A model generated the notes under the pieces. That model was given only the letters and a program-made list of their open reading frames with translations, did no database searches and had not been told where the DNA came from. Shown here piece after piece: positions 21,401 to 61,784 of a stretch of 64,000 bases of DNA. Positions within the stretch are counted from its first letter, which is position 1, and each line of letters opens with the position of its first letter. The stretch covers positions 124,001 to 188,000 of the forward strand of contig JBAIAA010000868.1 of NCBI GenBank assembly GCA_037893245.1. The letters are read 5' to 3'. Position numbers and translations under genes: made by a program. This DNA comes from Crossaster papposus. Lineage: Eukaryota; Echinodermata; Asteroidea; Velatida; Solasteridae.

Positions 21401-24400
21401 GTGAATTGTTGACGCTTGGCTTATTTATAGACATATCAGGTTTCAAGTTCGGACTAAACTTACCGTGGCATTGACGAAAACAGTCATTCTTGGAGTAGTA
21501 TTTATTTTCGTTACCCCCACAGCCGCTGTACACAAACTGTCGACAATCATTTAGGGTGGTATTGTAATACCACAAATATGCTTCCATGTCGCAACTCCCA
21601 AAGGCGGGCATCAAGTTACACCTTTCTGTAAAACGGAATAAAATAAAATGAAATTCTGAATCTCTTCCAAATCATATGTAAACAAGTAGTCCGGGAGCCC
21701 AGCCAGGTTTAATCATAATTTTGAGTGCAAAAGGTTTGAAGCGTGGGATATGTTGGGGTGACTGGGACAACTGCAAAATGGGTTTTCTTAAGTTTGGCGA
21801 GTGGTGCGTTGGGTGGGGGGAGCCCCTGACAGACCCCCTAAAATTCGATTTAATCATAATCTTGAGTGCAAACATAATTTTTTCATGATTCGAAAGTTTA
21901 TCGTGTACTGAATAGGATTTGTATACTTAAGAACAATATAATTGGTGCTAAGTACACTTAAGAAGGTCTTTAATTAGTGCTAATTACACGTTTAATCATA
22001 ATTTTGAGTGCAAGGATAAAACAAGTGTCAATGTGTAGCTGACACCTTGCTGGAGCAAAATCTGCCACTTAAGAAAGTTTCAAGTGGTGCCATCCCTAAT
22101 TAAGAAAGGGTCAAAGGTCATCATAAGTCATTAAACACCAATAGTTATAACGTTGAGTGCAACTTGCATTCATGTGTATACAAACAGGTTATCATAGACC
22201 GATCACTGATCACAAGCTTAAGAACAGGATATATAGTGCAAAGTCTAAAGTTTATCGTGTACTGAATAGGATTTGTATACTTAAGAACAATATAATTGGT
22301 GCTAAGTCTAATTAAGAAGGTCTGTAATTAGTGCTAATTACACGTTTAATCATAATTACGAGTGCAAAAATAAAACAAGTGTCAATGTGTAGCTAACACC
22401 TTGCTGAAGCAAAATCCGCCACTTAAGAAAGTTACAAGTGGTGCCATCCCTAATTAAAAAAGGGTCAAAGGTAACCGGGGGTGTAAACTGAACACCAACA
22501 AAGAACAATGTAAGTGCAACTTACATTTCTATGTGGATCAACCGTTTATTATGGACCAATCACTGATTACACAGCGCAATGTCCGATCAAAATGTCTGAT
22601 TAATAAATGATTAGAATGATAATTGAAATCATAAAACGTCAAAGTGTACATGTACTTTACCAAACACAGAAACAAAACCCACCGCATACGAAATATCACA
22701 AAACAGTCATGAAGTTCATTGCAATTGCCTGTACCCTCTCAAACACGAATGGGTGTAAATATGTAATACGTTAAAGTTAGGGAATACAAAGTTAAAGTTA
22801 GACAAGATGACAATACTGCCGCCTCTTAATGAAGAATGCGTAGTACCTAATGTTACCTATAATAGTTTGTTCAAAAGCAAATATAATCTATGTCGGTTGG
22901 GAAAGCAACAGCTCTGGATGGAATTAGTGTTAAAATGATCAGAATTGCTTCACCTTATCTTAGGCATATATCATTAAATCTTTAACTGGGATTTTTAACC
23001 ATAAGATGTGAGCGATACCCTACAAATTTGAAACATGCAGGAAATAAATGTAGTACAGGTAACTATCGGCCTATTTCTATACTGCCAATTATCTCTAAGA
23101 TTTTTGAAAGATAGGTGCACACATCGGTATATAGCTACCTTGATGAAAACAATCTGATTCCTAGTTGCCAGTCAGGATTTAGACTCCTGCACTCAACTGA
23201 AAGCACCATTCACGACTTAACAAACATGTGTGTTGAGGCCATGGAGAATATAGAAGTTACATGCAATGTGTTTTTAGATCTCAGTAAAGTATTTGATTGT
23301 GTTAATCATGAAATCTTACCAGAGAAACTAGAAAAGATGAACATGTCATCTTCTGTAATTAATTGGTTTATTAAAGTCGTAAATAAGTGACCGCAGTCAG
23401 TCTGTAAATATTGGCGGCACCATGTCCGTAAACATTGGTGTTCCGCACAAGGATCGATACTAGTTCCTTGTTTATACTAGTGATCTTCCATTTTTTATAT
23501 TCCCAAACTGCAACTTATTTATGTAAGCTGATGACTCCACGTCAATATGTGAAGCTCCTCAAATACAGCTCTTACTAGTTTTCACAACTGGTGCGTAAGA
23601 AACAAGCTAGCATTAAACGCCACCAAAACTAAATGTATGCTTATTGGTACAAGGCAGAAAATATCCAATGTTGACTTAAAGGTAGTATACTATTTGCGGA
23701 TATCGAACAAAATTACTACCGAATTATTAAGAAATATTTTACTAATTTGAAAGTAAATAACAATTGTAGGCATCCAGCAAAATTATTGCGCTAGATATCC
23801 TGTAATTGTTCCAAAAATTAAATTGTATATAACAAAAATAACGATCGCCGGACGGTAAACAAGAACAACATAAAAACCATTGCCCGACGCCGGTTGAAAA
23901 CGAACGCCGTTTTTGTTTTGCCTTTCTCAGTATCAATGACTGTAAAACTTCAGACAGGTCAGTTAAACGATATTGACTATAAAATACAACCCCCCAAATC
24001 CACCAATTCAAGATAAATAAAGCAATTACCAATGGTGTATCCAACTGCTGAGTGATAGTCTTATTGAAAACGTGAGGTCTTGTAATTGTGTGGGCGCAGT
24101 TATTGATGAGCATGAAGTTGGTGCCCACATGTCGAATACGTAAGGAAAGCTGTTGTATCTAAATTTAAACATAATCCGTGATTATGTTCCTAAACACAGC
24201 CTACATACACTATTTTGTAAGTTTAGTTATGCCAACATTAGAGTATTATTGTACTGTGTGAGGAGGAAGGTACATTTTGTGCGGGTTTTCGTCTTTCCCA
24301 TAAATCAGAATTGGCCTTAAACAGTACGGGCTGTAACTACGAAAGCTGTTTAAGCCATTGGATACGTATAAATCACTGTTTAAACCTGGTGTCTAACTTC

Positions 24401-27400
24401 AAACAAGTACTACAAAGCTTGTTTTAAGTTAGCCGCGTTTAAATGACCATTGGAGTTAAACATGTGTTTATAACAAACAATAGCAATTCTTAAACAAGGT
24501 ACGGGGGTTGTTTAGTGAGTATTCTGAGCCATTTAGAAGCCAGATATGTACACAGAAAGGTAGAAAGATGGACAGGATGGATGCGCTTCAAATCTTCTTA
24601 ATTGCACAAGAGGAGGCCAACTAACAAGAATATCGTCATGGTCGCCAACACCAACATGCACCAGGAGTTTTTAGGGACAAGGTGAATCCCTAAGAAGAGT
24701 ATGACGAGGAACATTTCATCAGACGTTTCAGAGTTAGCAAAGACACGTTGAACGATTTACTTGGACTTCTCGGATTGTATTTAGGACACCCAATTCTTTG
24801 TTGTCCTTATAGCAGATCGGCTTTTATGGTCAGGAAACGAGATGGCATTTCTGAAGTATTAGCTTTCCAGACATCAGCTTTTTTTCTGGTTGGCTTTCGT
24901 GTCACATCGTTTGTCACCAATACATGTAATGGAATTAAAGTTCCTCATGGTCTCAACGAGAGCCATCCTTTCGTCAGCAGTGAAACTGTCACTGCGTTGC
25001 CTTTTGGTATCAGCAATATGGCTCAGGCTGTAGAGTATCTAAGTAAAGACCTGCTGAAGATTTATCTACTGAGGCCTATCGTATGTTCATACTGTTGCGC
25101 AATCCTCTATATTACAATGTAATTAACAATAGGGTCCACGGTCAATAAGTTTAGACTGTCCAAGTTACACGAGGATAACTAAACAATCATTTAAGATAAT
25201 TAGTAAGAGCTGTTTAATTCAGGTGTTTAGGAAGACGCGTGTAACTTGGATTTATCCACGTCTATATGCTATACATTGGTATAAAGATAAACAGCTTTCG
25301 TAGTTACAGCCCTTCTTTTCTTAAAGTTAATGTACAAACATACCTAAGTATCAATGCTTTGTATTCCTATAAATATCCTTGTACATCTGTAAATATTCTG
25401 TTTGTATTTTTGTGTAAAAAATAAATATATAAATCTGCTTGGGGAGGTTGTCAAAATAGTATTTCGCAATGAACCCAGCCCATATCGGGATATTTTCGGC
25501 CCGTTAGTACATGCTGCATCATCCATAAACCATAAGATAAAACGTGTGCCCGTACTTTTAAACGTCTGGCAGATTTCAGATGTCTTCCACTTCAAGCCTT
25601 CTCTTTCTCGATTTGCAAGACGCAGTGTTCAGGGGTTGTGCAGAAAAGACCTGTTGGAGCTCGCTTTGATACAAGATCCCCATCGTGTCATAAAGTGTAT
25701 CAGACCCTGACAAGGTGTTTGTTAATTCACAAAGTTATCGATCGAATGCATAAAAAACTCGACTTTATTACGATAATTCGGAATCCTGGTGACCTTTGAC
25801 AATTTCTTTAGTAGGTATGGCACAATTTGGAATGTTCTTAATTGACACACTTTGCTCTACCACAGTGTATGGTACACATTAAAACGTGTTTGTTTTTATG
25901 GCACTTGACATTATAATTAAACCGTGTAATTAGCACTAATTAAAGACCTTCTTAATGGAAATTTGCACTATATATCCTGTTCCGAAGCTTGTGATCAGTG
26001 ATCGGTCTATGATAAACTGTTGATATACAAAATGCAAGTTGCACTCAACGTTATGATGAATAGTGTTTGTTGATTTCTGATTACCTTTGACCCTTTCTTA
26101 ATTAGGGATGGCACCACTTGAAACTTTCTTAAGTGACGGATTTTGCTTCAGCAAGGTGTCAGCTACACATTGACACTTGTTTTATCCTTGCACTCGTAAT
26201 TATGATTAAAACGTGTAATTAGCACTAATTACAGACCTTCTTAATTAGACTTTGCACTATATATCATATTCTTAAGCTTGTGGTCAGTGATCGGTCTATG
26301 ATAACCTGTTGATATACACATAAATGCAAGTTGCACTCAACGTTATAATTATTGGTGTTTAATGACGTATGGTGACCTTTGACCCTTTCTTAATTAGGGA
26401 TGGCACCACTTAAAACTTTCTTAAGTGGTGGATTTTGCTCCAGCAAGGTGTCAGCTACACATTGACACTTGTTTTATCCTTGCACTCAAAATTATGATTA
26501 AACGTGTAATTAGCACTAATTAAAGACCTTCTTAAGTGTACTTAGCACCAATTATATTGTTCTTAAGTATACAAATCCTATTCAGTACACGATAAATTTT
26601 CGACTCATGAAGAAATTATGTTTGCACTCAAGATTATGATTAAATCGAATTTTAGGGGGTCTGTCAGGGGCTCCCCCCACCCAACGCACCACTCGCCAAA
26701 CTTAAGAAAACCCATTTTGCAGTTGTCCCAGTCACCCCAACATATCCCACGCTTCAAACCTTTTGCACTCAAAATTATGATTAAACCTGGCTGGGCTCCC
26801 GGACTAAAGGTTGTAGATTAGAGACAACTGAATTATCCTACACCTAATTCCACAGCAAAGTAATTACAGAATATCAATATCAGAGGTACATGTACTACAA
26901 TTTCCTGCGGATAAAACGCGTCTTATCTGACTTTCTAGATCACAAAAACATCGCTGCGCCTTATCTACAGGTGTGCCTTATCTGGTGTCGCTCGAGTTGA
27001 AAGTGACGGTCTATGTGTGAAGAATTCTTTCAATGCCGCAATCTTACTCAATAATGCGGTCAACCAAGACTCAACTCTCAACATTGTGACCGTATTTCCA
27101 TTCCAACAATGCCGCGATGTGTTGATCCCCCGACGACCGTGCTTTCACTGACTGAACTCGCTACTGAATTAATTTACAATCCCACGGACCCAAACCTGGA
27201 ACGTAGTTTTGAAACCTGATATCTGCAGGAGAGGTATTTGCTTCCATTGTATAAACTCTGCGGTCAGGAACATCTGCGGTCCACGATTTTTGCTACATTT
27301 TGTGTCGGCTCACTCAAAGGATTTAGTTCATTGAACCTTATTTATTTTGGAAAAAGACGCACCATTGAAGGGTCGGAAACCGCAAGCATGCACAGCGTTT

Positions 27401-43144: not shown

Positions 43145-43663
43145 TGGTCGATAATACACCCTGTGATTTTGTTTTCTTAATTGTTAATTTTAATTTAATA
43201 TTGTGTATAGTTAATGTCGTATTTTTGTTTCACAAACCTGTTTTATATCAGTTTTAGTCACTGCATTTCCGGGTTTTATTTTTCTTCTATAAGTCGTTCA
43301 ATTTAAATAGTGTTTAAATAGTGGGGGGTTTTTTTGGTTTTTTTTTTGGTTTTTTTTTGGTTTTTTTTTTTAAATAATGTACAAATAATGTTTAATTTGA
43401 AACTCGCGCGTGTGTGTATATATTTTTTATTTATTTTTTAAATGTTTTAATTTTTCTTTTTAATTTTTATTTTTTTTAAACATAAATTTAAATAAGTTTT
43501 TGTTTGAGTTTATTATTCTAATATGTTTACTTTAAAATAAAATAACATGAAAGAGAAAAAGAAGGTTTATATTGTCATACTTTTAGATTGTTTAACATAA
43601 AACACGATAGTAAAAACAAATTGGGATCATTCTAGATTAATACTTCAATGACTAAACACTATC
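43145..43663. other. Non-coding gap, T/A-rich
   Basis: Extremely AT-rich, with GGTTTTTTTT-type runs near 43325-43370. It probably holds the 3' end of the spliced gene and the integrase promoter. No gene is seen. Confidence 0.6.
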
Positions 43664-44752
43664 ATGGGGGAACGCAGTGAGTGGTACAAGTACCTAAAAA
43701 CATTATATTATGATATTGGAAATGAAACGGGATTGAGTAGCGTCGAAAAACTCTATCAGAGAGCAAACGTCGAGGGAGTGTACAAGTTATCTCGTAAGCA
43801 AATAAGAGAGTTTTTACAAACCCAAGATGTATATACTTTACACAAACAAATTAAACGAACGTTTCCGAAAAATCGTGTTCTGGCCATAGCTATTGACGAA
43901 ATATGGCAAATAGATTTGTGCGACGTTCAAAAACTATCGCGTTATAACAAGGGATATAAATACATACTAACCTGTATCGATGTATTTTCAAAGTTTGCGT
44001 GGGCTAGACCTTTGAAAAATAAAAAAAGTAAAACAATACTAGACGCTTTTCGGTCTATATTGAGTAGTGATAACAAAAGGGCGCCCATGCGGCTTCACTC
44101 GGACAAGGGAACAGAATTTATGAATCGAGAATTTCAGCGTTTTCTGAAGCAAAACGACATTGAATTTTTCACTGTAAACAACGAAACAAAGGCCAGTGTA
44201 GTAGAGAGATTTAACAGAACGCTCAAAACTAAGATGTGGAAATATTTTTCGTATCGCGGTACTTTCAAATATATCGGTGTGTTGCAAGAGCTGATAAATG
44301 CTTACAATAATTCCACTCATCGTTCGATACGTATGAAACCCAGTGAGGTAACGCAGGAAAATGACGGACAGGTGTGGAAAACGTTATATGCCGACGTCAG
44401 GCGTGCGCCAGAGCCAAAGTTTAAATTTAAGGTGGGAGACAAAGTTAGGATTAGTATAGCGGCTAGGGTATTCCGAAAAGGATATTTACCTCAATGGTCG
44501 GAAGAAATATTTACCGTCAGTAAACGCGTGCGTAATGTACGGCCTCTGTATTCGCTCAAAGATTACGGAGATGAAGGGATAAAGGGAACATTTTACGAAG
44601 AAGAGTTACAGAAAGTGATTAAAGATAAAAACGATACGTACAAAGTGGAAACAGTAATTCGACAAAGAACCAAAAATGGCCAAAAAGAATATTTGGTCAA
44701 GTGGCTTGGCTATCCATCGAAATTCAACAGTTGGGTGACAAAGCTTTATTAA
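43664..44752 (+). CDS. Polinton integrase (rve) with C-terminal chromodomain
   Basis: 362 aa. The retroviral-type integrase core has a catalytic triad visible as D84 (QIDLCDV), D147 (LHSDKGTEF) and E181 (VVERFNRT), spaced D-x33-E. The N-terminal region is helical and lacks an obvious HHCC finger. A basic middle domain (about 255-315, KFKVGDKVRIS) precedes a short chromodomain (about 326-358: YKVETVIRQRTKNGQKEYLV, then KWLGYP...NSW). By family knowledge it inserts the linear element and makes the 6-bp duplication; chromodomains steer integration to marked chromatin. The frame is intact. It ends 49 bp before the penton gene. Confidence 0.96.
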   Translation: MGERSEWYKYLKTLYYDIGNETGLSSVEKLYQRANVEGVYKLSRKQIREFLQTQDVYTLHKQIKRTFPKNRVLAIAIDEIWQIDLCDVQKLSRYNKGYKYILTCIDVFSKFAWARPLKNKKSKTILDAFRSILSSDNKRAPMRLHSDKGTEFMNREFQRFLKQNDIEFFTVNNETKASVVERFNRTLKTKMWKYFSYRGTFKYIGVLQELINAYNNSTHRSIRMKPSEVTQENDGQVWKTLYADVRRAPEPKFKFKVGDKVRISIAARVFRKGYLPQWSEEIFTVSKRVRNVRPLYSLKDYGDEGIKGTFYEEELQKVIKDKNDTYKVETVIRQRTKNGQKEYLVKWLGYPSKFNSWVTKLY

Positions 44753-44801
44753 TAGGGATGACGAGACACTCCCATCGACAGTAGCACTTTGAAAGTGAAT
44801 C

Positions 44802-45560
44802 ATGGCGGTAGAACAATTTTATATAACGCTTCCGAGCAACGCCTCCCTGTCTGTGTATCCTAATAATACACTGTCGGATTATACGACTAGATTGTTTAAT
44901 TCCATTCATTTATCGGGGAAATGGGAAGTTGGCCTAAGCGAAATACAGTACCCTCACTGCTATTTTAACATAACGGATAGAAATAATTCATTAACTTATT
45001 CCAAAGACGGTAATATTGCCCGACACTTAAAATTACCTCACGGTTTTTACAGTAACGTGCAGGAAGTTCTCGATACCATCAACGATAATTTTATCGAAAC
45101 AGCAAGATCGAGTATTGGTTTAACGATAGATAAAAACTCTAGAAAAGTTACAGTTAGATTGAGGACCGGTGCGTTCTTAGTATTTAACGATGATCTGTAC
45201 AAATTATTAGGACTACCTCGTAAGTCATTTTTTGAAAGCACCGTGGGGGCTCAACCGTCCGACGTTTACTCGGGGGTGTATGGCCTTTATGTATACAGCG
45301 ATATTGTTGAACCTCAGTTTGTAGGCGATGCCAATGTTCCCCTGATGAAAATAGTACCGCTCAAGACAGGAAGTAAAACTGCGGGAGAAATGGTTTCGAC
45401 GTCGTACAGCATGCCCCATTATATTCCGGTTAAAACAAAACATTTTGAAACGATAAACGTCAATATAAGGGACGACACGGGTCGAAAGTTTGCATTTGAA
45501 CGAGGAAAAGTGGTGGTGAAGTTACACTTTCGTCAGGTACGCCCTTCCTTATTTCAATAA
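44802..45560 (+). CDS. Penton / minor capsid protein candidate
   Basis: 252 aa. It opens FYITLPSNASLSVYPNNTLS, then YTTRL and GKWEVGLSEIQYP, a pattern I associate with the conserved Polinton/adintovirus protein predicted as the single jelly-roll penton. Beta-rich, no signal peptide. It stands directly before the core-protein and major-capsid genes, with only 2 bp to the next start codon, which supports a virion role. The assignment is by family memory and order; no structure was computed. Confidence 0.75.
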   Translation: MAVEQFYITLPSNASLSVYPNNTLSDYTTRLFNSIHLSGKWEVGLSEIQYPHCYFNITDRNNSLTYSKDGNIARHLKLPHGFYSNVQEVLDTINDNFIETARSSIGLTIDKNSRKVTVRLRTGAFLVFNDDLYKLLGLPRKSFFESTVGAQPSDVYSGVYGLYVYSDIVEPQFVGDANVPLMKIVPLKTGSKTAGEMVSTSYSMPHYIPVKTKHFETINVNIRDDTGRKFAFERGKVVVKLHFRQVRPSLFQ

Positions 45561-45562
45561 TC

Positions 45563-45937
45563 ATGACGGCGTACGAACGGTATTACAAATCTCAAGCTGG
45601 AGGTGGTCAATATTTCAAAGGAGCGCAAGTGCAGACGGGGTATGGCTTAGGCGGAATCCTGTCGGGGCTGTTTCGATCGGCTCTCCCGGTCATAACTCAG
45701 GGAGCCAAAAATATTGGAAAACAAGCACTTCAGACGGGACTGCAAATGGCAAACAATGCCCTCAATGGCCACGCCGCTGGTACTACTCACGACCAACCGA
45801 CGAAAAATCCACCGCGTAAAACACCGCGTAAACCACGCAAGCCTCGCAAGCCTATAAAGAGGAAAGGTCCGAGCCCACCGACCATTTCATCAGCGAAGAA
45901 GCGTCCAAGAAGGTCACCGGACATATTCGATTCTTAA
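45563..45937 (+). CDS. Small basic virion protein, adenovirus pX/pVI-like
   Basis: 124 aa. The N-terminal half is glycine-rich and amphipathic (QAGGGQYFKGAQVQTGYGLG, ILSGLFRSALPVI, ALQTGLQMANNAL). The C-terminal half is very basic (repeated PRKPRKP, KRPRR). This two-part layout resembles membrane-active or DNA-condensing minor virion proteins of adenoviruses and the corresponding adintovirus/Polinton protein. It sits between penton and major capsid genes with gaps of 2 and 5 bp. Confidence 0.65.
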   Translation: MTAYERYYKSQAGGGQYFKGAQVQTGYGLGGILSGLFRSALPVITQGAKNIGKQALQTGLQMANNALNGHAAGTTHDQPTKNPPRKTPRKPRKPRKPIKRKGPSPPTISSAKKRPRRSPDIFDS

Positions 45938-45942
45938 GCATC

Positions 45943-47277
45943 ATGGCGTTCATTCACAAACATTCTCCCGAATGCACAAAGTCGGAACTTGATCTATTCG
46001 CGGTACCTACCACTCAGACTAGCGTCGCAAAAGGGCAATGGGTACAATATCAACCCTTGACAAACATTGTGGACTCCGGCCCCATCGAATTTCTCATCAA
46101 TGGTTCGAGCGAGACCTACTTGGATTTGGCGCAAACGATGCTACACGTACAGGCTAAAATTGTTGATGCTAATGGGGGTGCATTAGCCGACGATGTACCA
46201 GTCGCGCCCGTCAACCTTACGATTCAGTCTATCTTTTCTGAAGTGGACGTGTCTTTAAATGACCGGGTCATCACCCCCTCTACCAACACGTATCCCTACA
46301 GGGCCATATTGGAAACGCTCCTGAGTTACGGGCCGGCGGCCAAACACTCTCATCTTACATCCGGCCTGTTCTACAAGGACACAGCGGGGAAAATGGATGT
46401 ATCGGACCCTACTATAACCGATCCTGCGCATCGAAATGAAGGATTACAACAGAGGTTTTCGCACGCAAAGGGAAGCAAGATGATTGATCTAATAGGGCCT
46501 ATACACGCGGACATATTTTTTCAAGATAGACTTTTGTTAAACGGTGTAAACATGAAAATTAAATTACACCGAAGTAAGGATGCTTTTTGTTTAATGTCTT
46601 CTACCCAGGGGGTCGATTACAAAGTGCACATACACAATGCCACTCTCTATATACGCCGAGTAAACGTCAACCCCATGGTTGCAATAGCCCATGCAAAAAC
46701 ATTGGAACAGGCAACGGCTAAATATCCCCTGCGTAGGGTGGAAGTCAAAACATTCTCCATTCCTCAGGGTAACCAATCTTTTACGAGGGAGAGAATGTTC
46801 CTAGGCCAAACCCCCACGCGCATTGTTATTGGGTGTGTAAATAATATGGCTTTTAATGGGGATTATACAAAGAATCCTTTTAATTTCAAACATTTTAATT
46901 TAAACTTTTTAGCTCTGTACATAGACGGGGAACAGTTACCGTGGAAACCGCTCAAGCCTAAATTTGTCGGGCCCGACAGTAATTATCTCATGGCTTATCA
47001 AACTCTATTTTCGGGTATAAATAACCTTCACCACAATTCGGGGAATGACATTTCTAGATCTGACTATGCGGGCGGATACACTCTGTTTGCGTTTGACCTA
47101 ACTCCCGATCTTTGTTCGGGCGGACATTTTAACCTCTTACGAAGCGGTAACGTACGCTTGGAAATAGCCTTTAGAGATCCCCTAGCCAGTACCGTAAATG
47201 TGATTGTGTATGCGGAGTACGATTCGCTCCTGGAAATTGATAAATCCCGCAATATATTGATTGATTATTCATCATGA
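45943..47277 (+). CDS. Major capsid protein (double jelly-roll, hexon-like)
   Basis: 444 aa. It begins MAFIHKHSPECTKSELDLF with the line WVQYQPLTNIVDSGPIEFLI, then SIFSEVDVSLNDRVITPSTN and YPYRAILETLLSYG, which I recognise as the conserved Polinton major capsid protein. By established work this has the double jelly-roll fold of adenovirus hexon and related viruses and should form pseudo-hexameric capsomers. The length is within the Polinton range and the frame is uninterrupted. Its stop overlaps the protease start (ATGA). Confidence 0.9.
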   Translation: MAFIHKHSPECTKSELDLFAVPTTQTSVAKGQWVQYQPLTNIVDSGPIEFLINGSSETYLDLAQTMLHVQAKIVDANGGALADDVPVAPVNLTIQSIFSEVDVSLNDRVITPSTNTYPYRAILETLLSYGPAAKHSHLTSGLFYKDTAGKMDVSDPTITDPAHRNEGLQQRFSHAKGSKMIDLIGPIHADIFFQDRLLLNGVNMKIKLHRSKDAFCLMSSTQGVDYKVHIHNATLYIRRVNVNPMVAIAHAKTLEQATAKYPLRRVEVKTFSIPQGNQSFTRERMFLGQTPTRIVIGCVNNMAFNGDYTKNPFNFKHFNLNFLALYIDGEQLPWKPLKPKFVGPDSNYLMAYQTLFSGINNLHHNSGNDISRSDYAGGYTLFAFDLTPDLCSGGHFNLLRSGNVRLEIAFRDPLASTVNVIVYAEYDSLLEIDKSRNILIDYSS

Positions 47278-47789
47278 ATACCCCTCAATTACTGAGTGTT
47301 CTAAAGGCCGATAAAATAACGAATCGGCAGTGTGGTGGCGTTTATCCAATAGATAAATTACCGGAAACTGTTGACACTTTCCCTCGCATATACATCGTCA
47401 ATACCGACAAAAGCACACAACCCGGAAGTCATTGGATCGCCTTATATTTCGACGGTGATAAAAGGGCGGAACTGTTTGATTCCTACGGTAACTCCCCGTA
47501 TATGTACGATGAACTTTTAATGCGTTTCATCAACAACAATTGTCTTGGATTCACGTATAACGACATTTGTCTGCAATCTCTCAGCACTACGGTGTGCGGA
47601 CAATATTGTTTGTTTTATGCAATGCATCGTTGTAGGAACGTAGATATGAACAATATTATAAGAATGTTTACGAGGGATACCCATTTTAACGACACACTCG
47701 TACATCACTTTGTAGAATCCCGTTACAATATTTCTATTCCCATATCCGATGTTGAATTTATCGTTAACCAAATTGTAAAAAAGTTTTAA
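47274..47789 (+). CDS. Adenain-like cysteine protease (maturation protease)
   Basis: 171 aa. The C48/adenain catalytic set is in order: His in PGSHWIALYFD, acidic residue in ELFDSYG, Gln upstream in CLQSLSTTVCGQYC, and nucleophilic Cys in the final CGQYC (about residue 108). By family knowledge it cleaves virion precursors during maturation. Its ATG overlaps the capsid stop by 4 bases, implying coupled translation or alternative splicing. Confidence 0.93.
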   Translation: MNTPQLLSVLKADKITNRQCGGVYPIDKLPETVDTFPRIYIVNTDKSTQPGSHWIALYFDGDKRAELFDSYGNSPYMYDELLMRFINNNCLGFTYNDICLQSLSTTVCGQYCLFYAMHRCRNVDMNNIIRMFTRDTHFNDTLVHHFVESRYNISIPISDVEFIVNQIVKKF

Positions 47790-48015
47790 ATGTATACCGT
47801 AGTTGTTTTTATAGGAGTATAAACAAAACAAAACAAAAAAGATAAAAAGAGAGTAGAATACGCAAAGAAAATTAGTTAGTCAAACACTGTATTAAATGTC
47901 TCTATCATTGTCACGTATTTATTTTCTTGTTACATAATACATGTATGCAAATCAATAATAAAAATCAACAATATTAATATTATACAATGAATTTTCGTTT
48001 GTTATTTTGTTTAAG
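47790..48015. terminator. Convergent 3' ends with poly(A) signals on both strands
   Basis: The plus strand carries AATAAA at 47957-47962 after the protease gene. The minus strand carries AATAAA at 47923-47918 after the 258-aa gene. Each signal lies past the other, so the two converging transcripts would overlap at their 3' ends by tens of bases. Confidence 0.6.
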
Positions 48016-48792
48016 TTACAATGATTCCCATACCAGACGTTTTTTAGGTTTCTGCGTAGAAAAGGATGATGTAACCCTCTTTCGTTTTTTACGTTTTGAG
48101 AGTTCCGATGGCAACGTGGGTAAAACCCTTTTTTCGACAGCATCCGGCGTCATCATGTTTTGCTTATAACGCTGCGCTATAGTACGACGTGAAACGTTAC
48201 CCATCCATGTTTCGGGTACATTCATACTCGCTAAGCCACGCAAAAAATGTTGCCAACCGCGAGGGTCATATCCTTTTCTAGCACGTAGTACATCATTAAT
48301 TAAATCAGTAATATTCGATCCCTGAATGACATCTTTGCCATATACAAGTTCTCCATTTTTGTTCCAACTCATAATGTCCGTATTGTTTATCTTATCAATT
48401 AACAGCTTCGCTTTATGTTTGTACGTTTTGGGTACACCGTCAAGAATTTCGGTCGCTGAATTATCTCGCGCTAGTTCGGTCGGTAGTTTTTTTCCCCCGG
48501 TAGTTTCATCAGTAGTATCGTGGGTTTGTTTTCCTTCTGCAGTATTCATAGTTAGTGTGATGGGTTCTTGCTTTCTGGCACGATCGAATTGGAGGTATCT
48601 CTGTAGCGCTTGCTGATACAGAATCACCTTGGTATTATCATCCAAATCGGATCTATCCAAAATATCTCTCATATCCCCTTCCAACGTTTGTACTTTAATC
48701 TCTCCGATGTCTCTTTTCAAAAGTACATTTTGAATGGCTCGCGTTACTTGGTCCGCGGGAGCATTCATCTCAATTTTCTTGGCGTAACGCAT
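48016..48792 (-). CDS. Conserved-type Polinton protein of unknown function (258 aa)
   Basis: 258 aa with three parts: a helical N-terminal third (ILDRSDLDDNTKVILYQQAL), a middle block (TYKHKAKLLIDKINNTDIMS, WNKNGELVYGKDVIQGSNIT, DLINDVLRAR) and a strongly basic C-terminus (KRKKRKR, KPKKR) that looks like a nuclear signal or DNA-binding tail. I associate the middle block with proteins in other invertebrate Polintons, with no known role. Its ATG overlaps the stop of the upstream gene (TAATG). It is probably a DNA-associated virion or replication accessory protein. Confidence 0.7.
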   Translation of the reverse strand: MRYAKKIEMNAPADQVTRAIQNVLLKRDIGEIKVQTLEGDMRDILDRSDLDDNTKVILYQQALQRYLQFDRARKQEPITLTMNTAEGKQTHDTTDETTGGKKLPTELARDNSATEILDGVPKTYKHKAKLLIDKINNTDIMSWNKNGELVYGKDVIQGSNITDLINDVLRARKGYDPRGWQHFLRGLASMNVPETWMGNVSRRTIAQRYKQNMMTPDAVEKRVLPTLPSELSKRKKRKRVTSSFSTQKPKKRLVWESL

Positions 48793-49121
48793 TAGTTCCC
48801 GAGAAAAAGACCCCCTAAAGTGCGAAGGATTGGAGCGAGAAGCGTACCCAAAAATCCACCCTTTTGCACGAGTAGTTCTTTTCGTTTCTTGTGAGACAAT
48901 CTTTTATCAGCCAGTGTTCTTAGGTGTGTCTTGTGGCGCAATAGTTTCTTTCTCTGAGCAGAAGTCAAAGGTACGTGGCCTTTTAAGACATTCATGGCAC
49001 ATTCGCAAATACACGATATCAATTCTTTATCCGCCCCTTTTAATATATCCTTTCTAAGTCGAGGGGTAGATTTGCTCAACACCTGAAGAGTGTTGGCGTT
49101 GCTCCTAAGTCTCTGCGTCAT
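48792..49121 (-). CDS. Small basic protein with hydrophobic glycine-rich tail (109 aa)
   Basis: 109 aa. The middle is lysine/arginine-rich (SAQRKKLLRHKTHLRTLADK) and the end is an amphipathic, glycine-punctuated helix (KGGFLGTLLAPILRTLGGLF). The pattern fits a minor core or membrane-lytic virion protein; no enzyme motif is present. It lies between the ATPase and 258-aa genes and shares one base with the latter (stop/start TAATG). Confidence 0.68.
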   Translation of the reverse strand: MTQRLRSNANTLQVLSKSTPRLRKDILKGADKELISCICECAMNVLKGHVPLTSAQRKKLLRHKTHLRTLADKRLSHKKRKELLVQKGGFLGTLLAPILRTLGGLFLGN

Positions 49122-49160
49122 CGTGGCAAAGTGACGAACAAGTTCGTTTGCAAAGCCCTA

Positions 49161-49802
49161 TTATACTCTCGGTACATACGCGTACTGCGTTTCTCCCTTA
49201 AATATGTTTGTTCTCAGTCTAAATCTCTCGGGAGTGTCTGGTTTAAGATCTATAAATAAATACCCGTAGGGTTCGCTGGTAGCGTCGTAATACGCTTCTG
49301 ACATAAATCGTGTCTGACTAGGATACATTTGTTTGGCTAAATGAGTAATCTGAGATCGATCTCTCGGATTTTTAAAAAGTACGATATAATTACAATTTAA
49401 ACTAATGGTTCTGCTTTCTTTTGACTGATAAAATAAATTTTGTACAATATATATAACTGACAAATTACGATGGTGAGAACCTTTGGTAAATAATTTAGTT
49501 ATTCGTGTATCGTTGCCGCACTCGGTCATGAGATCATCAATAACTATTAAATTTCTGTCTCGCGGGTCGAGGTGCTCGGCCCAATCGTCCGGCAACCCTT
49601 CAACAAAGCGTATACCATGTACGTTATCAGACAATTTCTGGAAAAGCGGCTGATATTCTCCATAACACCACAAAATTTTCCCAGGTGTGTCCAAAATGAC
49701 ATCTTGTTTTTGTTCGAGTAATTTCTTTACAAACTCGGATTTCCCACTTCCTGAAGGTCCGGCAATGATACACGTGAATGGATGTTTTAGCTTGGCCGCC
49801 AT
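49161..49802 (-). CDS. FtsK/HerA-type DNA-packaging ATPase
   Basis: 213 aa from the ATG at 49802. Walker A GPSGSGKS (about residues 15-22), Walker B NLIVIDDLM (about 85-92), followed by TKGSHHRNLSVIYIVQNLF, which matches the A32-like packaging ATPases of Polintons and large DNA viruses. By family knowledge it pumps the genome into preformed capsids. The frame is intact. It sits on the minus strand between the PolB/membrane-protein genes and the basic core proteins. Confidence 0.95.
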   Translation of the reverse strand: MAAKLKHPFTCIIAGPSGSGKSEFVKKLLEQKQDVILDTPGKILWCYGEYQPLFQKLSDNVHGIRFVEGLPDDWAEHLDPRDRNLIVIDDLMTECGNDTRITKLFTKGSHHRNLSVIYIVQNLFYQSKESRTISLNCNYIVLFKNPRDRSQITHLAKQMYPSQTRFMSEAYYDATSEPYGYLFIDLKPDTPERFRLRTNIFKGETQYAYVPRV

Positions 49803-49837
49803 CAAATCATCTGAATAGTCTGTACAATATCATGCAA

Positions 49838-50047
49838 TTATATAAACCTAAAAGAGCTCTGTGATTGGTTACTCGGTCGACTATTATCTGAAAGGAATAG
49901 GGTCAACAGACTATTGATCTGCTCCTCCTGGACCACGGTATTTCTAAATACGATCGATAGAACAGTCGATATAATAATAATTATAATCAATACTAGTTTA
50001 AGTACGCGCTTGTTTCTTTCATCTCGTACACGCGATGCATCGTCCAT
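49838..50047 (-). CDS. Small single-pass membrane protein (69 aa)
   Basis: Starts at ATG 50047, 14 bp after the PolB stop codon. A short charged N-terminus (MDDASRVRDERNKRV) is followed by one hydrophobic helix (LKLVLIIIIIISTVLSIVF) and a polar C-terminus. No family recognised. Position and size recall small membrane proteins in other DNA viruses, but the role is unknown. Confidence 0.55.
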   Translation of the reverse strand: MDDASRVRDERNKRVLKLVLIIIIIISTVLSIVFRNTVVQEEQINSLLTLFLSDNSRPSNQSQSSFRFI

Positions 50048-50060
50048 GGTAGCTCTGACC

Positions 50061-53000
50061 TTAATGACTCGGTGGAGCCAACGCACCGTGTTTATAACCA
50101 TACGGTAACGTATTAAAATTATCTACAATCACCCTCTTGCTGTACACCACGCGATAATCTTTTGTACTCGATTTGGTCAATATTTCTTTTGTCTTGCCAT
50201 TTCGCACGATCTTATGGGGGTCCGATATCACGATTTTTTCGGGACCGACCCGTTTTACCATATCGACCACCGAATCAAAATTGATTTGCTGGGAATTCCT
50301 AAAGTTTAAGGTGAATCCCCTGACCTTACAACATGTCTTACCCGTGTCTAATCGATACGCGTAATTCTTGGGCCCGCCCGATACGAAGGTCTCTATGTAT
50401 TTACCGTCTTTAGGACTTATCTCGTTCGTCAAATCGCCGAGAAAATCACCCAGAGGAGGTCTGTACTGTCCCGGTTTGTCCACGTATATTACGCTGTCGG
50501 TGTCGTAATACAATACAGATTCCTGCAGTTTTTCGAGTACGCCGTACAGTTTGAGGCGGGCATGCGCAGTTGTAAACGCGGCAATGACTACGTTCGTTCT
50601 GGGGTTCGGGTCCACAAACTCTTCTTCCGATTCATACCGAACTTCCACAATCTCGTGGTTGATGAAATTAATATCGTGCACCACTTTATCATCGGCGAGC
50701 AAAATTTCATACAACTTCGCGGGATCACTGAGTACTTCCACTTTGGGCATATTTATTCTCTGACCAAACTTTCCCCAGAACGAATTGAGCATTAGTTTAG
50801 CGAGGGCTCTTAGACCGGGGTTTTTCTCTATCTTTGAGGCGTCTAACCGAATCCCTTCCTGTTGAAAATATTGATCGATATATTTCGCCCTATCGGCTTC
50901 GGTTTTTACCCAGCTCGGCCATCCGGAAGCTTCGACTTTCAGTTTTAAGAAAGTGTTGATGTAGTCGGTGAATAAACCCCCCGATTGAGTCTGCGTGTCG
51001 TATTGTTCCCTTTGATCAAAATGCCAAACAACGTCAATGTCAACCACTTTGTATCCCAGTTCTATGGCCTTTTCAATTTCAATGGATACCCACGTGCCTC
51101 GCAGCGTTCTTTCGGCATCTGTATGCTGACAGAGGGTCTGTTGCAGAGATTCTACACAAGTGCGACAGAGCGGAAAAGTCAATTTACCGCCCGAACGATA
51201 GGGTAGTAATGGATGGTACAGGGTGGACGGCGGTAACACGCGACATTTAACGAGACCGTAGTATTCCGACACGTCTTTAAAGTTCTCCGTCACAATTTGG
51301 GGGTGGTACATCGGATAAGAACAGTACTTGTTCGTGTAGGGATACAGCGAACAAAAATCAACGTATTCGATGGTTTCTTCTCCGGACGTTTGATGGAATA
51401 AACGAGTAGCATTGGTACGCCCCCCATAGAATGCATCCCTAGGATTCAATGTTGCGCGGGGTCCGGTAATTACTTCATCTTGCAGCGCGCGTTTCATATC
51501 TTCGTCTAAATCTTTGACTATGGCCCCCCACTCGCATTCCCACATCTCAACAAATTTGGTACACGATGATTGGAGGAACGTTTTCCTTTCTTGCGTACGC
51601 GTGTACAATTCTGACATCGGTGTCATCAACTTATTATTCACGGTCTTCCTGTTGGGATAACACGAGACGCATCCGTGAAAGTAACACCCGTTGAATGAAT
51701 AAATGATTTGATTTTCCGCGTCATAGCCGTCCACCTTGTATTTTCCGATCTGTTTTTCTCCTTTGTTTCGCGCGTGTCGAATATACGTACCCTGCGTTAA
51801 GTGAACGTAATGGAACCATTGTAACGCGACCTTAGATTGCTGTTCCTTGCAGTCGTAACCGTTAGGGGGCAATACAGCGATGGTATCAGCGCACAGAAAA
51901 TTTCTTCGGTACACTAAATTACACGCAGAGGCGATCGTAACGCAACTTTCAAAGGGGTCTACGCCAGCATCACCCTTCCCTTTCGACGTGACTTTCTTGA
52001 ACAAGGTTCGAAACTGAAGGCAGCAACGACTCAGAATTTCGACGTCGCTTACGCAGTATTTCAGTAATTCGTCTTGCAACACGAAATGATTCCCCTTTTG
52101 CGTCTCGTACCAACTGTTAAATTCCCCTCTCTTTTCGGAACTCATACCGTCCGGATCGTAATATTTCATATCCGGAATTGGGCCTTCGTACTCTTGATTT
52201 TGTTTCGTGTTCCAGAAATGAGGAAAAAATCCTTTGTGTAGTTCTTTCTGACCGAATGCGTGCGGTAACTTACTCAGTGCCATGGGCAAAAAATTCATGG
52301 AATCGATAATTTTGCGTTTGTACTTTGGCAGCATGATGGCTTGTATCTTACACCCCGTATATATGATCTCGGGTATGATTGCATTATCGTACAGGTAACG
52401 GAGGAGGAAATAACCGTCGTACGCTTTCAAATTGTGCGCCAGCGCGGTTGAATTTGACGTATCTTTGGAACCGAATAACCAATCACAGAACTCTTCCTTA
52501 CATTTGTCACCTTTGAATACTTTCTGACGAGACGCCGAACAATGTTCACACGATATGTACATCGGGTCGTCTTCTGACCTTTCAGCACACAATTTACATA
52601 CTACCCGAGCAACGCATAAGTTTGGTTCGTGAACACCGTTATCCTGAGTACATTCGAAGTCAAAGAACACGTATTTAGCAACGTCTTGTTTTTTCTTTCC
52701 CCTCTTATTCCCATCAAGATCTTCGTCGTCATCATCACCATCATACTGATCCCAGTCACCCTCGCCCCCCTCGTCCCCTTCGTCACTATTCCCCCTGTCG
52801 TCATTGGTTCGCTTTGTGCGATCTTTTCTCGTGTTTTCCACGGGCTTAATAAAGCATTCGTGATCGATCGACCCCATTTCTTTGCATACGGTACAATACC
52901 TACGAGTACAATCGTGTTCTCCGTATTTACCCTTCATCTCGGTGTTCACGAAACAATCGCAGCGTGTACATCTATAATACATTTGACAGACTGTCTTTTC

Positions 53001-54458
53001 CTTGATCCGTTTGTTCTTATGATTTTCAAAACATCTTCTATCCTTAAAATTACGGTTACATTCTGAACAGTGCACCCACGTAGTTATTTCGCCCGACTTA
53101 CAGCCGGGAGAAAAGCACAGTTTACAGTCGTCAAAACATCTCGTGTGTCTCTCTTTCGAATTGTACCCCGTTTGACACGTGTCGCAAAAGTAACCCCTAT
53201 TTAAAAATCCCTTCATCGATGTAATCAGATCGTAGTGATTATCGTGAAAATACAGATAAATCGTGTACCGTCGGACGGGTCCTTTGAAAATGGCTGCATT
53301 GAAATGATCGGCCGATAAAACCACGATACGATAATCGGGTAGGACATCCTGAAATTTCTGTATCTCTTCGAGACCGCACTGGCCTTCTTTTACGACCGCT
53401 TTAGCGTGCAAATCTCTAGCAAGATATTCTTGCTCTTTGCGACCTATTTTAATCTGCTTTAATTGTGGATGGTTCTCTTTGATAGCTATCCCGGTGACTA
53501 TTGCTCTGGCGCAGCACAGTTCCGTCTTGATATCTTTAATCTGAATGACCGACGTCTTATCTCGTAACATGTCGTGAATTTTTACCACGCCGTGATTTTT
53601 CTTGTTAGTCTTTCCCCCCTGCGGCAACCGCATATGCACAAAATGGATGTCAACCCTGTCGTCCAATCGAAGGTGTTGATACGACTGCAATACTTGTTCG
53701 ATACGAGCCATAAATCTCTCTACAGTTAATTCGTCTACTCGTAAAAAGGGCAGAGCGATTGGGAAATTCAAATAACTAGACTGAAACACCAACCTTACTC
53801 TGTCTTCACCGGGGAGACCATCCGTTAATCCTTCTAAAAGGCTCTCAAATATAGAACCCAGGCGTGGTATAAATTCCCGTAATGATAAGTGCTCCAAGTC
53901 CCTGAACTGAACTCTATAATCATACATCTTAGCTTGATATTTCTTCACAAATCTCTCATTGACTTCTACAATGTTGTAAAAATCTTGCGGTCTCTCCACG
54001 CGAATCCTCTTTCTCCGCGGCTGATTTGTCTCGTCCTCCTCGTCCGGTTGTTCTTCATCACCCATCCGAACTTCTTGTGAATCTTCCTCAAAGCCTGCCC
54101 ACGGATCACCATCATCATCCGAGTCGCTGTCGTCGTTACCGTTCCCGTGTTGATACGGCACGTCTTCTTCTTCATCCTGGTTGTTCCGTAAAGTCAGACG
54201 ACCCACCGCCCCGTCCTCTTGAAAATCTTCCTCAAATCCTGCCCACAGATCATCATCATTACCCGGGTCGCCGTCGTCGTTACCGTGCCCGTGTTCATGC
54301 GGCACGCTTTCTTCTTCATCCTGGCTGCTCCGTAAAGTTAACTCGTACAGCCTATTCAGAGCATATGCCGTTTGATCATCGTTGAGTTCAATATTATCCA
54401 AAATGATACCGAGTTCTTCATAGGTTTGACAATTTTGTATTTCTCTGTAGATATCCAT
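50061..54458 (-). CDS. Protein-primed family B DNA polymerase (Polinton PolB)
   Basis: 1465 aa. Exonuclease motifs: ExoI FFDFECTQ (about 599), ExoII NLKAYDG (about 676), ExoIII YCVSDVEIL (about 802). Polymerase motifs: A DFCSLYP (about 1033), B NSFWGKFGQR (about 1225), C YYDTDS (about 1317). All catalytic acids are present. Upstream is a cysteine-rich segment (about 425-525: CDTC, CKLC, CSEC, CTRC, CTVC) suggesting several zinc sites. The first 135 residues hold two diverged copies of an acidic unit with DPWAGFEED-type endings. By family knowledge it replicates the linear element from its ends using a protein primer. The upstream region carries the repeated subterminal motif. Confidence 0.97.
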   Translation of the reverse strand: MDIYREIQNCQTYEELGIILDNIELNDDQTAYALNRLYELTLRSSQDEEESVPHEHGHGNDDGDPGNDDDLWAGFEEDFQEDGAVGRLTLRNNQDEEEDVPYQHGNGNDDSDSDDDGDPWAGFEEDSQEVRMGDEEQPDEEDETNQPRRKRIRVERPQDFYNIVEVNERFVKKYQAKMYDYRVQFRDLEHLSLREFIPRLGSIFESLLEGLTDGLPGEDRVRLVFQSSYLNFPIALPFLRVDELTVERFMARIEQVLQSYQHLRLDDRVDIHFVHMRLPQGGKTNKKNHGVVKIHDMLRDKTSVIQIKDIKTELCCARAIVTGIAIKENHPQLKQIKIGRKEQEYLARDLHAKAVVKEGQCGLEEIQKFQDVLPDYRIVVLSADHFNAAIFKGPVRRYTIYLYFHDNHYDLITSMKGFLNRGYFCDTCQTGYNSKERHTRCFDDCKLCFSPGCKSGEITTWVHCSECNRNFKDRRCFENHKNKRIKEKTVCQMYYRCTRCDCFVNTEMKGKYGEHDCTRRYCTVCKEMGSIDHECFIKPVENTRKDRTKRTNDDRGNSDEGDEGGEGDWDQYDGDDDDEDLDGNKRGKKKQDVAKYVFFDFECTQDNGVHEPNLCVARVVCKLCAERSEDDPMYISCEHCSASRQKVFKGDKCKEEFCDWLFGSKDTSNSTALAHNLKAYDGYFLLRYLYDNAIIPEIIYTGCKIQAIMLPKYKRKIIDSMNFLPMALSKLPHAFGQKELHKGFFPHFWNTKQNQEYEGPIPDMKYYDPDGMSSEKRGEFNSWYETQKGNHFVLQDELLKYCVSDVEILSRCCLQFRTLFKKVTSKGKGDAGVDPFESCVTIASACNLVYRRNFLCADTIAVLPPNGYDCKEQQSKVALQWFHYVHLTQGTYIRHARNKGEKQIGKYKVDGYDAENQIIYSFNGCYFHGCVSCYPNRKTVNNKLMTPMSELYTRTQERKTFLQSSCTKFVEMWECEWGAIVKDLDEDMKRALQDEVITGPRATLNPRDAFYGGRTNATRLFHQTSGEETIEYVDFCSLYPYTNKYCSYPMYHPQIVTENFKDVSEYYGLVKCRVLPPSTLYHPLLPYRSGGKLTFPLCRTCVESLQQTLCQHTDAERTLRGTWVSIEIEKAIELGYKVVDIDVVWHFDQREQYDTQTQSGGLFTDYINTFLKLKVEASGWPSWVKTEADRAKYIDQYFQQEGIRLDASKIEKNPGLRALAKLMLNSFWGKFGQRINMPKVEVLSDPAKLYEILLADDKVVHDINFINHEIVEVRYESEEEFVDPNPRTNVVIAAFTTAHARLKLYGVLEKLQESVLYYDTDSVIYVDKPGQYRPPLGDFLGDLTNEISPKDGKYIETFVSGGPKNYAYRLDTGKTCCKVRGFTLNFRNSQQINFDSVVDMVKRVGPEKIVISDPHKIVRNGKTKEILTKSSTKDYRVVYSKRVIVDNFNTLPYGYKHGALAPPSH

Positions 54459-54813
54459 GTTTATTATTAATCGGCTGGCTCGGTGTTACGCAGTACGTGC
54501 TGCATCTCTAAACGAGTTCGTAAAAGTGATTTGTAGACGGTCAATTTCGTGGGTTGTTTTATTCACGTACGAATACAATTCACTCACAACACTTAAAATA
54601 GAAAGTGACAACATCGCTAAAAATACATTTCCTACGTAAATACTTCAATAGGCTATGACCACACTTGCGAAACACAGAAGTTAAAAATAGAACGTGACAA
54701 CATCCCTAAAAATACATTTCCTACGCAAACACTTCAATCAGCTCCAACCTCCACAATCTGCACCGTCCACACTTCCTGGATGTACTGGCCATGTGTACTT
54801 CCCGGATGACATG
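54459..54813 (-). promoter_or_regulatory. PolB upstream region with tandem repeats
   Basis: A unit of about 90 bp is repeated at about 54595-54665 and 54685-54745 (AGAA(A/C)GTGACAACATC, then CTAAAAATACATTTCCTACG). It includes the reverse form of the motif found upstream of the Death-domain gene. Several CCGGATGTACTT/CTTCCCGGATG blocks adjoin the inverted repeat. A promoter role is inferred. Confidence 0.45.
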
Positions 54814-57430: not shown

Positions 57431-57609
57431 GGGCCACCATATGTATGCGTTTTCATGGTAGTACGTCACACACAAAGTATGAATTATTCATGAGTTAAGG
57501 GCTTTTGCTGAAACTGAGTTTTTCTGGGTCGTAGAACGCCGATCAATTTTGTTGTTTTTTGCATGAAGGAACAAGATTTATTGAATACTAATGATATATT
57601 AGTATTGTA

Positions 57610-58578
57610 TTGTATGCCGACGATGCTGCTCTTGTGGCTCACTCGGAAAATGAGTTGCAGAACCTTGTCAGCAGTTTCGAAAGGTCAGCCACTGCGTTCG
57701 GTCTCACCATAAATACCAAGAAAACCGAGGTCATGGTTCAACCAGTACGACGTACTCTACTTGTCCAACCAACCATCCTCTTAAACAACCAGCCCTTAAA
57801 GTGTGTGCCTCACTTCACCTATCTTGGCAGCACAGTCTCCAGCGACAATAGCCTGGAGAAAGAGCTCAACAAGAGGGTATCTGCTGCAGCAGCATCCTTT
57901 GGGCGTCTACATCATAGAGTGTGGTCTCAACGTGGCATCAAAACCTCTACTAAATGTATGGTGTACAGGGCAGTGGTACTATCATCTCTTCTCTACTCAA
58001 CTGAAACATACACAGTATACCAAAGACATATCCGGAAACTAAATCAAATTCAACTCCGCCATCTTCGTACCATCTTAAACATCAAGTGGTCTGACTATAT
58101 CACTAACAACGAGGTTCTTCGCAGGGCTGGTATGGCCAGTGTCGAGTCCATGCTGCTTGCCAGACAGCTACGTTGGAGTGGTCACCTCGCACGTATGGAT
58201 GACTCCCGACTACCAAAGCAGATATTCTATGGAGAACTGGCGAAAGGGGTTCGTCACAGAGGCCGCCCTCAACTTCGTTTCAAGGACTGTCTGAAACGTC
58301 ATCTCCAAGCAGCTGGCATTCCAACCAACACCTGGGAAGACATGGCCAAGGAGAGGCTCACATGGCGTTCACTCACCAAGAGTGGGGCTGCGTCAGCTGA
58401 GGATGCCAGGGCAGAAGCTGCAGAGACTAGGAGGATGCGGCGTCACGAGAGAGCGGTTTATCCCGAGGACGCACCCCTACAATGCAGATACTGTGGCCGC
58501 CAAACATCTGCCAGGATTGGCCTATACTCCCATGAGAAGTCTTGCCAACTCAAACTTCGAAACTCAACCCCCCGATAG
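57610..58578 (+). pseudogene. 5'-truncated non-LTR retrotransposon ORF2 (C-terminal part)
   Basis: 322 aa starting in the middle of the reverse transcriptase at the catalytic box (YADDAALVAHSENELQ, then GLTINTKKTEVM), followed by the thumb, WSGHLARMDDSRLPKQIFYG, RGRPQLRFKDCLKRHL and a C-terminal C2H2-type finger (CRYCGRQTSARIGLYSHEKS then C). The frame is open but fingers/palm start and endonuclease are missing, so it is a dead-on-arrival copy. It occupies the centre of the foldback element. Confidence 0.85.
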
Positions 58579-59044: not shown

Positions 59045-59238
59045 TGGCCCTGAAGGGACTCCGCAGATCGCGAATATTGACGTCAAATTTGACGTCAATA
59101 TTCGCGACTTTTGGGGAAAGTCGTGAATATCGACGTCAAATTTGACGTCAATATTCGCGACTTTTTTGGAAAGTCGTAAATATATACACGTCAAATTTGA
59201 CGTCGATATTCGCGATCTGCGGAGTCCCTTCAGGGCCA
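59045..59238. repeat. Palindromic array of CRE-type sites, right copy
   Basis: Inverted counterpart of 57245-57430 in the right foldback arm, with the same three palindromes and the same outer GGCCCTGAAGGGACTCCGC boundary. Confidence 0.8.
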
Positions 59239-59256
59239 CCATGTATGCGTTTTCAT

Positions 59257-61564: not shown

Positions 61565-61784
61565 CTGGGGTTCCATGGATTGATAACTCTTTTTAGTCAG
61601 TATTATATTAATATGCCAAGAATTAGACAGCAGATCCTCCGATCCGATCCTCATCCCTTCCTTTTCTCCACCTCCCCCCCCCCCCCCCCCCCCCCGCGGC
61701 CCACCCCTGGATCCGCGCCTAGTCTTTTTTGTGAACGAAATCCCCAGAGTTGGAAGCCACGGGTCACCAATTCTTGATTTCCAC

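Follow-up and report, generated by a model that had tools for sequence, protein, structure and literature searches.

A Kunitz domain in the extracellular part of an ALK4/5/7-type TGF-beta type I receptor of sea stars and other echinoderms

The type I receptors ALK4, ALK5 and ALK7 (TGFBR1, ACVR1B, ACVR1C; Baboon in the fly) have in common a kinase, a GS motif, a cysteine-rich head and a single membrane helix. Here we describe a receptor gene of this type in the sea star Crossaster papposus, within a 64-kb stretch of contig JBAIAA010000868.1 (the window), which encodes one more extracellular domain than these relatives, a Kunitz/BPTI domain between the head and the membrane. Kunitz modules are also present in other proteins of the TGF-beta pathway, namely WFIKKN1/2 (GASP), which are secreted and contain WAP, follistatin/Kazal, immunoglobulin, two Kunitz and NTR domains. 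A previous reading of the window from its sequence only had drawn this comparison, which stands in so far as both are pathway proteins with a Kunitz module, but remains an analogy: WFIKKN1/2 are multidomain antagonists, whereas Pfam detects one Kunitz domain and otherwise only receptor domains here. A second described system is APP, where the Kunitz domain inhibits trypsin-like proteases and is left out in some splice forms, being present in APP751/770 and absent from APP695. APP is a known precedent for an internal Kunitz domain gained in a single lineage, the vertebrates (PMC3927609), and, like the echinoderm receptor, is a single-pass membrane protein. The two host proteins are unrelated and, in contrast to that of APP, the receptor Kunitz domain has no basic residue at P1.

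The receptor gene is complete, with 10 coding exons spanning 38433-7067 on the minus strand, and its introns start with GT and end with AG. The exons are:

38433-38367, minus strand: exon 1, start codon and signal peptide MASIGKLNLMLIFIILCPCLLS, ending in phase 1, donor CAG/GTAAGA
29047-28911, minus strand: exon 2, N-terminal half of the three-finger, cysteine-rich ectodomain, aligned to Patiria, Acanthaster and Asterias
28014-27831, minus strand: exon 3, C-terminal half of this ectodomain, ending in phase 1, aligned to the same three sea stars
21625-21464, minus strand: exon 4, Kunitz/BPTI domain, symmetric phase 1-1, recognised by PF00014, cysteine spacing and sequon, with the same segment in 12 other receptors
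20860-20603, minus strand: exon 5, transmembrane segment and start of the GS region, aligned to the same three sea stars
18522-18292, minus strand: exon 6, end of the GS motif and kinase N-lobe, with PF08515 and kinase matches
17485-17318, minus strand: exon 7, kinase, L45-loop region
11137-10856, minus strand: exon 8, kinase catalytic loop, PF00069
9278-9148, minus strand: exon 9, kinase C-lobe
7192-7067, minus strand: exon 10, end of the kinase and stop codon (...LRTAEDVKL*)

The signal peptide of Patiria, used as a tblastn query, located exon 1 (87% over 23 amino acids (aa), E 1e-10). Joined, the ten exons encode 581 aa; leaving out the Kunitz exon gives 527 aa, and the reading frame is open both ways. 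In line with the TGF-beta type I receptor that had been proposed, three domains of the 581-aa product exceed their Pfam cut-offs within one protein: the Kunitz domain, the GS motif (PF08515, 46.2 bits, cut-off 21.3) and the kinase (PF00069, 122 bits). The three-finger ectodomain (PF01064) scores 15.4 bits against a cut-off of 20.9; that of Patiria scores 22.2, and the two ectodomains align. Among solved structures, the best relative of the kinase is TGFBR1 (561 bits), followed by BMPR1B (483) and ACVR1 (464), and among the sea stars compared the nearest kinase is that of Patiria, with 98% identity. We regard it as nearly certain that this is an ALK4/5/7 (TGFBR1/ACVR1B-type) type I receptor with a Kunitz domain, a statement that takes identity and phylogeny together.

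The Kunitz exon lies exactly where it had been placed. It has 162 nucleotides (nt) and phase 1 at both ends, with the acceptor tattttattccgttttacag/AAAG at 21625 and the donor CACG/gtaagttt at 21464, and the flanking exons 28014-27831 and 20860-20603 join in frame whether it is included or skipped, as had been noted. The cysteines follow the BPTI spacing (C-x8-C-x15-C-x7-C-x12-C-x3-C), and the exon alone matches PF00014 with 55 bits (cut-off 21, E 9e-15). Its donor agrees with the consensus at 7 of 9 positions (5-8 in the other internal exons) and its acceptor is pyrimidine-rich (13 of 16); the splice sites are thus about equal in quality to those of the other exons and uninformative on skipping. 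The solved Kunitz sequences closest to this domain belong to SmCI, the nearest, and to other Kunitz inhibitors (4bd9, 2ody, 5h7v), and SmCI is also the closest fold in a structure comparison; these proteins are themselves inhibitors and stand outside any kinase receptor. A predicted structure of the full-length receptor was poor in the kinase region; the best 50 Foldseek matches listed for it were all kinases, and the three-finger head was not among the matches listed in either comparison.

Twelve other receptor proteins have the same segment at the same place. When residues 1-185 of a 558-aa product served as query, six proteins were obtained, the best three of which are annotated as 'TGF-beta receptor type-1-like' (Patiria miniata 74%, Acanthaster planci 67%, Asterias amurensis 54%) and each carry PF00014, the GS motif and the kinase; the remaining three are multi-Kunitz proteins without receptor domains. 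In a profile search that scored only the 7992 candidates sharing most words, so that rare cases may exist elsewhere, PF00014 was present in 11 of the best 120 of 4090 matches. These comprise the three sea stars, the brittle star Amphiura filiformis, the urchins Diadema antillarum and Lytechinus pictus, the crinoids Anneissia japonica and Antedon mediterranea, and three 'lgn' proteins. A search with one of these 'lgn' proteins, P0011, gave a single relative, the Alk4/5/7 of the sea cucumber Apostichopus japonicus (P0124, 48%), again with PF00014. Altogether, the six-cysteine pattern is present in 12 of the 121 receptors retrieved, nine of them echinoderm by name and three 'lgn' proteins, while the other 109 include P0015, an urchin form without the Kunitz domain. 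Some of the 12 records are incomplete: that of L. pictus (P0017) has an aberrant N-terminus without the head, that of Antedon (P0016) has neither signal peptide nor first cysteines, and that of Apostichopus lacks a GS match and is disturbed where the kinase begins.

In a kinase tree from which the Patella row was dropped after a failed kinase cut, and which contained no BMP-receptor rows, the three 'lgn' proteins lie with or beside echinoderms. P0008 groups with Amphiura (99/96) and P0010 falls within the urchin set (100/100); P0011 falls outside a supported set of 13 rows (10 other animals by name), and takes no supported place among echinoderms. The class membership of six Kunitz-bearing species was checked (Ophiuroidea, Crinoidea twice, Echinoidea, Holothuroidea, Asteroidea), and all five living echinoderm classes are represented. 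No Kunitz domain was found in the hemichordate receptors examined (Ptychodera isoform X2, Glandiceps, Saccoglossus) or in the one examined from the amphioxus Branchiostoma lanceolatum. Judged by these protein records, the Kunitz domain on ALK4/5/7 is an echinoderm-wide domain gain and neither a local oddity nor a nested gene.

The same receptors differ in other regions. The L45 loop, which determines the choice of Smad in other receptors, reads NKDSGMV in the four sea stars (exon 7 in the window) versus NKDNGTW in the brittle star and urchins, and its Trp is also missing in the crinoids, Apostichopus and P0011. In the Asterias amurensis protein (P0003) both C14 and C20 (window numbering) of the ten ectodomain cysteines are replaced, as if one disulphide had been lost pairwise. 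The sea urchin receptors P0009, P0010, P0015 and P0017 have a C-terminal tail of ~46-53 residues past the kinase that is absent from the other echinoderm proteins.

The distance from head to GS motif, measurable in 97 of the 121 receptors and not in 24, is 144-155 residues in the 10 measured Kunitz receptors versus a median of 93 in the 87 others, supporting the addition of the Kunitz domain to a normal linker. Longer linkers without the Kunitz pattern occur in two of these 87, both from Vespa (P0059 with 178 and P0071 with 127 residues). Its presence in all five classes and its absence from the hemichordate and amphioxus proteins examined make exon shuffling on the echinoderm stem the most likely origin of the Kunitz exon at this site; the distribution and phase of the exon are observed, and it is the timing and mechanism that we infer.

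The intron that precedes the Kunitz exon contains, at 21687-26806, an element with terminal inverted repeats of 562 nt (97% complementary) and tandem subrepeats. Its tip lies ~60 nt from the Kunitz acceptor, CTT flanks it on both sides, and inside it is a decayed stretch (23115-23750) similar to a reverse-transcriptase open reading frame (ORF) at 59201-60667. We considered this element as a source of the Kunitz exon and rejected it, as the exon lies outside the element tips and is present in other echinoderms. Its insertion could affect splicing of the Kunitz exon in this species.

Comparing the window domain with its 12 counterparts, the six cysteines, G12, Y23, G37 and N43 are invariant in all 13, and the identity of the Kunitz domains to that of the window is of the same order as for the ligand-binding head. 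An N-glycosylation sequon at position 24 is found in 11 of the 13, missing only in the crinoids. A trypsin-type inhibitor would combine Lys or Arg at P1 with a small residue at P1', and the window domain has Asp and Met; the non-trypsin character that had been read from the Asp extends to the whole set, where Lys or Arg occupies P1 in none (D, D, T, N, P, D, G, S, T, E, E, N, T). This residue differs even among sea stars (D, D, T, N). At P1', 9 of the 13 domains have Met, Tyr, Leu or Asn, and Gly occurs only in the two crinoids. The P3-P3' loop varies, with an entropy of about 2.2-2.7 bits at positions 13 and 15-18, as do many other places on the surface; the highest values are those of positions 10 (3.2 bits) and 29 (3.0 bits).

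The sequence-only reading had also raised the possibility of a splice switch. An APP-like switch would call for a symmetric exon and for transcripts of both kinds. The Kunitz exon is symmetric and frame is kept without it, and a Kunitz-less form is known as a protein model of Lytechinus variegatus: isoform X2 reads ...DPLEPQETPPD-YRVGGPESG... where L. pictus has ...TYPPDLDQC(Kunitz)ACKDYRVGGPESG..., the L. pictus model being aberrant further upstream. This looks like an in-frame omission of the domain, as if the exon had been skipped. The idea thus has a counterpart, but one that consists of a database model of a relative compared with another species. As for inclusion, the 'lgn' proteins have 567, 621 and 568 aa and their longest contigs 2053, 3706 and 3298 nt, and because such contigs are too short for introns like those of the window gene, the three are presumably spliced transcripts including the Kunitz exon. 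The Kunitz-bearing record of Patiria miniata is labelled 'isoform X2'.

Our best explanation of the whole, blending identity, phylogeny and role, is one we consider probable. For the role as such, we put at about even chances that the Kunitz domain acts as a non-inhibitory, glycosylated juxtamembrane spacer or adaptor on a Nodal/activin type I receptor. With the order signal peptide, cysteine-rich ligand-binding head, Kunitz domain, transmembrane helix, GS box and kinase, a rigid, disulphide-bonded and N-glycosylated Kunitz unit just above the membrane would lengthen the receptor by one domain, set the height and orientation of the head and offer a side surface to partners, with no protease inhibition. 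Raising the head by one Kunitz unit may change how the complex of ligand, Cripto and type II receptor is arranged, and the in-frame omission in the one sea urchin model suggests that splicing may tune receptor height or partner access. In vertebrates the CFC domain of Cripto binds ALK4, by a model at its ligand-binding surface (PMC11751877). The P1 argument for a non-inhibitory role is weak by itself, because the non-receptor Kunitz domains are also never basic at this position: among 8 with the same spacing, from three non-receptor proteins, none has a basic P1, and one has the sequon. That the domain is instead a receptor-tethered inhibitor, shielding receptor or ligands against a protease nearby, nevertheless seems very unlikely to us. 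The fold and six cysteines are intact and some Kunitz domains with a non-basic P1 do inhibit proteases, but P1 is never Lys or Arg and varies within sea stars, and canonical Kunitz inhibitors have Ala or Gly at P1', where most of these domains have a larger residue or Asn.

The sequence-only reading had favoured a binding role, and a specific interaction module is our main, if tentative, alternative: the Kunitz domain would bind one particular partner (Nodal/Univin/Panda, Cripto, Lefty, betaglycan or matrix), thereby changing ligand choice or the need for a co-receptor, the skipped form being a differently wired receptor. It is consistent with the retention of the domain in all five classes, where its sequence identity approaches that of the ligand-binding head, and with the in-frame Kunitz-less form of L. 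variegatus. Moreover, the sea urchin is reported to have just one Alk4/5/7 gene in its genome, the one that serves as Nodal receptor (PMC11239237), and the module would therefore sit on the only receptor of its kind. The variability of the P3-P3' loop argues against one conserved partner bound through this canonical loop, which on the sequences compared seems unlikely. More doubtful is a stronger version, in which a splice-switchable Kunitz domain, gained on the stem on the only Nodal/activin/TGF-beta-type type I receptor of echinoderms, re-wires the use of ligands or co-receptors (Nodal-Univin, Panda, Cripto, Lefty); if true, receptors with and without it would give different signals when the dorsal-ventral and left-right axes are patterned. 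The exon might also be a neutral passenger, gained once by shuffling and tolerated as a symmetric exon in a flexible linker. Its site is indeed a linker, merely lengthened, and one urchin has a Kunitz-less protein model, but echinoderm classes diverged hundreds of millions of years ago and decay or loss would be expected, whereas the invariant residues and the sequon have persisted across classes; we consider this unlikely. Finally, the element with inverted repeats that precedes the exon, together with a gene model drawn from genomic DNA, could point to an artefact or an independent nested gene, the case that the sequence-only reading had named as fatal. We give this almost no credence and rejected both a nested gene and a chance resemblance: homologous proteins of 12 other receptor records carry the same segment in the same place, for three of these the contigs are too short for such introns, and all would have to be mispredicted alike. 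Our preferred reading remains that of a spacer or adaptor.

Among the titles and abstracts listed in a literature search that did not cover older subscription literature, none described a Kunitz domain in a TGF-beta receptor. Nor was a paper found on a possible parallel, a short alternative insertion at the corresponding junction of human TGFBR1, on which nothing here relies. In the parts of the articles available, the word 'Kunitz' is absent from PMC11239237 and PMC4564238 and occurs once, for collagens, in PMC10381214, while PMC3927609, PMC2542381 and PMC2394772 treat Kunitz domains in other contexts and contain neither 'activin' nor 'TGF'. The architecture itself is already visible in public protein databases with the Kunitz domain computed, and one of the proteins is named Alk4/5/7. 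Its significance is that work on Nodal in sea urchins and sea stars has been done on a receptor built unlike the vertebrate one, with an added domain throughout the phylum. The receptor is also a clean instance of a core developmental gene that took up a phase 1-1 exon by shuffling, an event most likely to date from the echinoderm stem. If the exon is splice-switched, receptor geometry or partner choice would be directly testable in embryos.

Elsewhere in the window, 28140-28080 on the minus strand contains transfer RNA (tRNA)-like A-box and B-box motifs (agctcagttggtagag ... gggttcagaccc) recognised by eye, perhaps of a short interspersed element; ARAGORN called no tRNA within the window. The receptor start codon is preceded, at a distance of about 5 kb, by a Polinton/Maverick-like element (43652-54485), in which we recognised:

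43652-44752: integrase with chromodomain (Pfam)
47265-47789: adenovirus-type protease (Pfam, weak)
49161-49829, minus strand: A32-like ATPase (Pfam, weak)
50061-54485, minus strand: ORF of 1474 aa, DNA polymerase-like by eye

Beyond it are three reverse-transcriptase ORFs, at 57595-58578, 59201-60667 and 61778-63973, by eye of the type without long terminal repeats (non-LTR).
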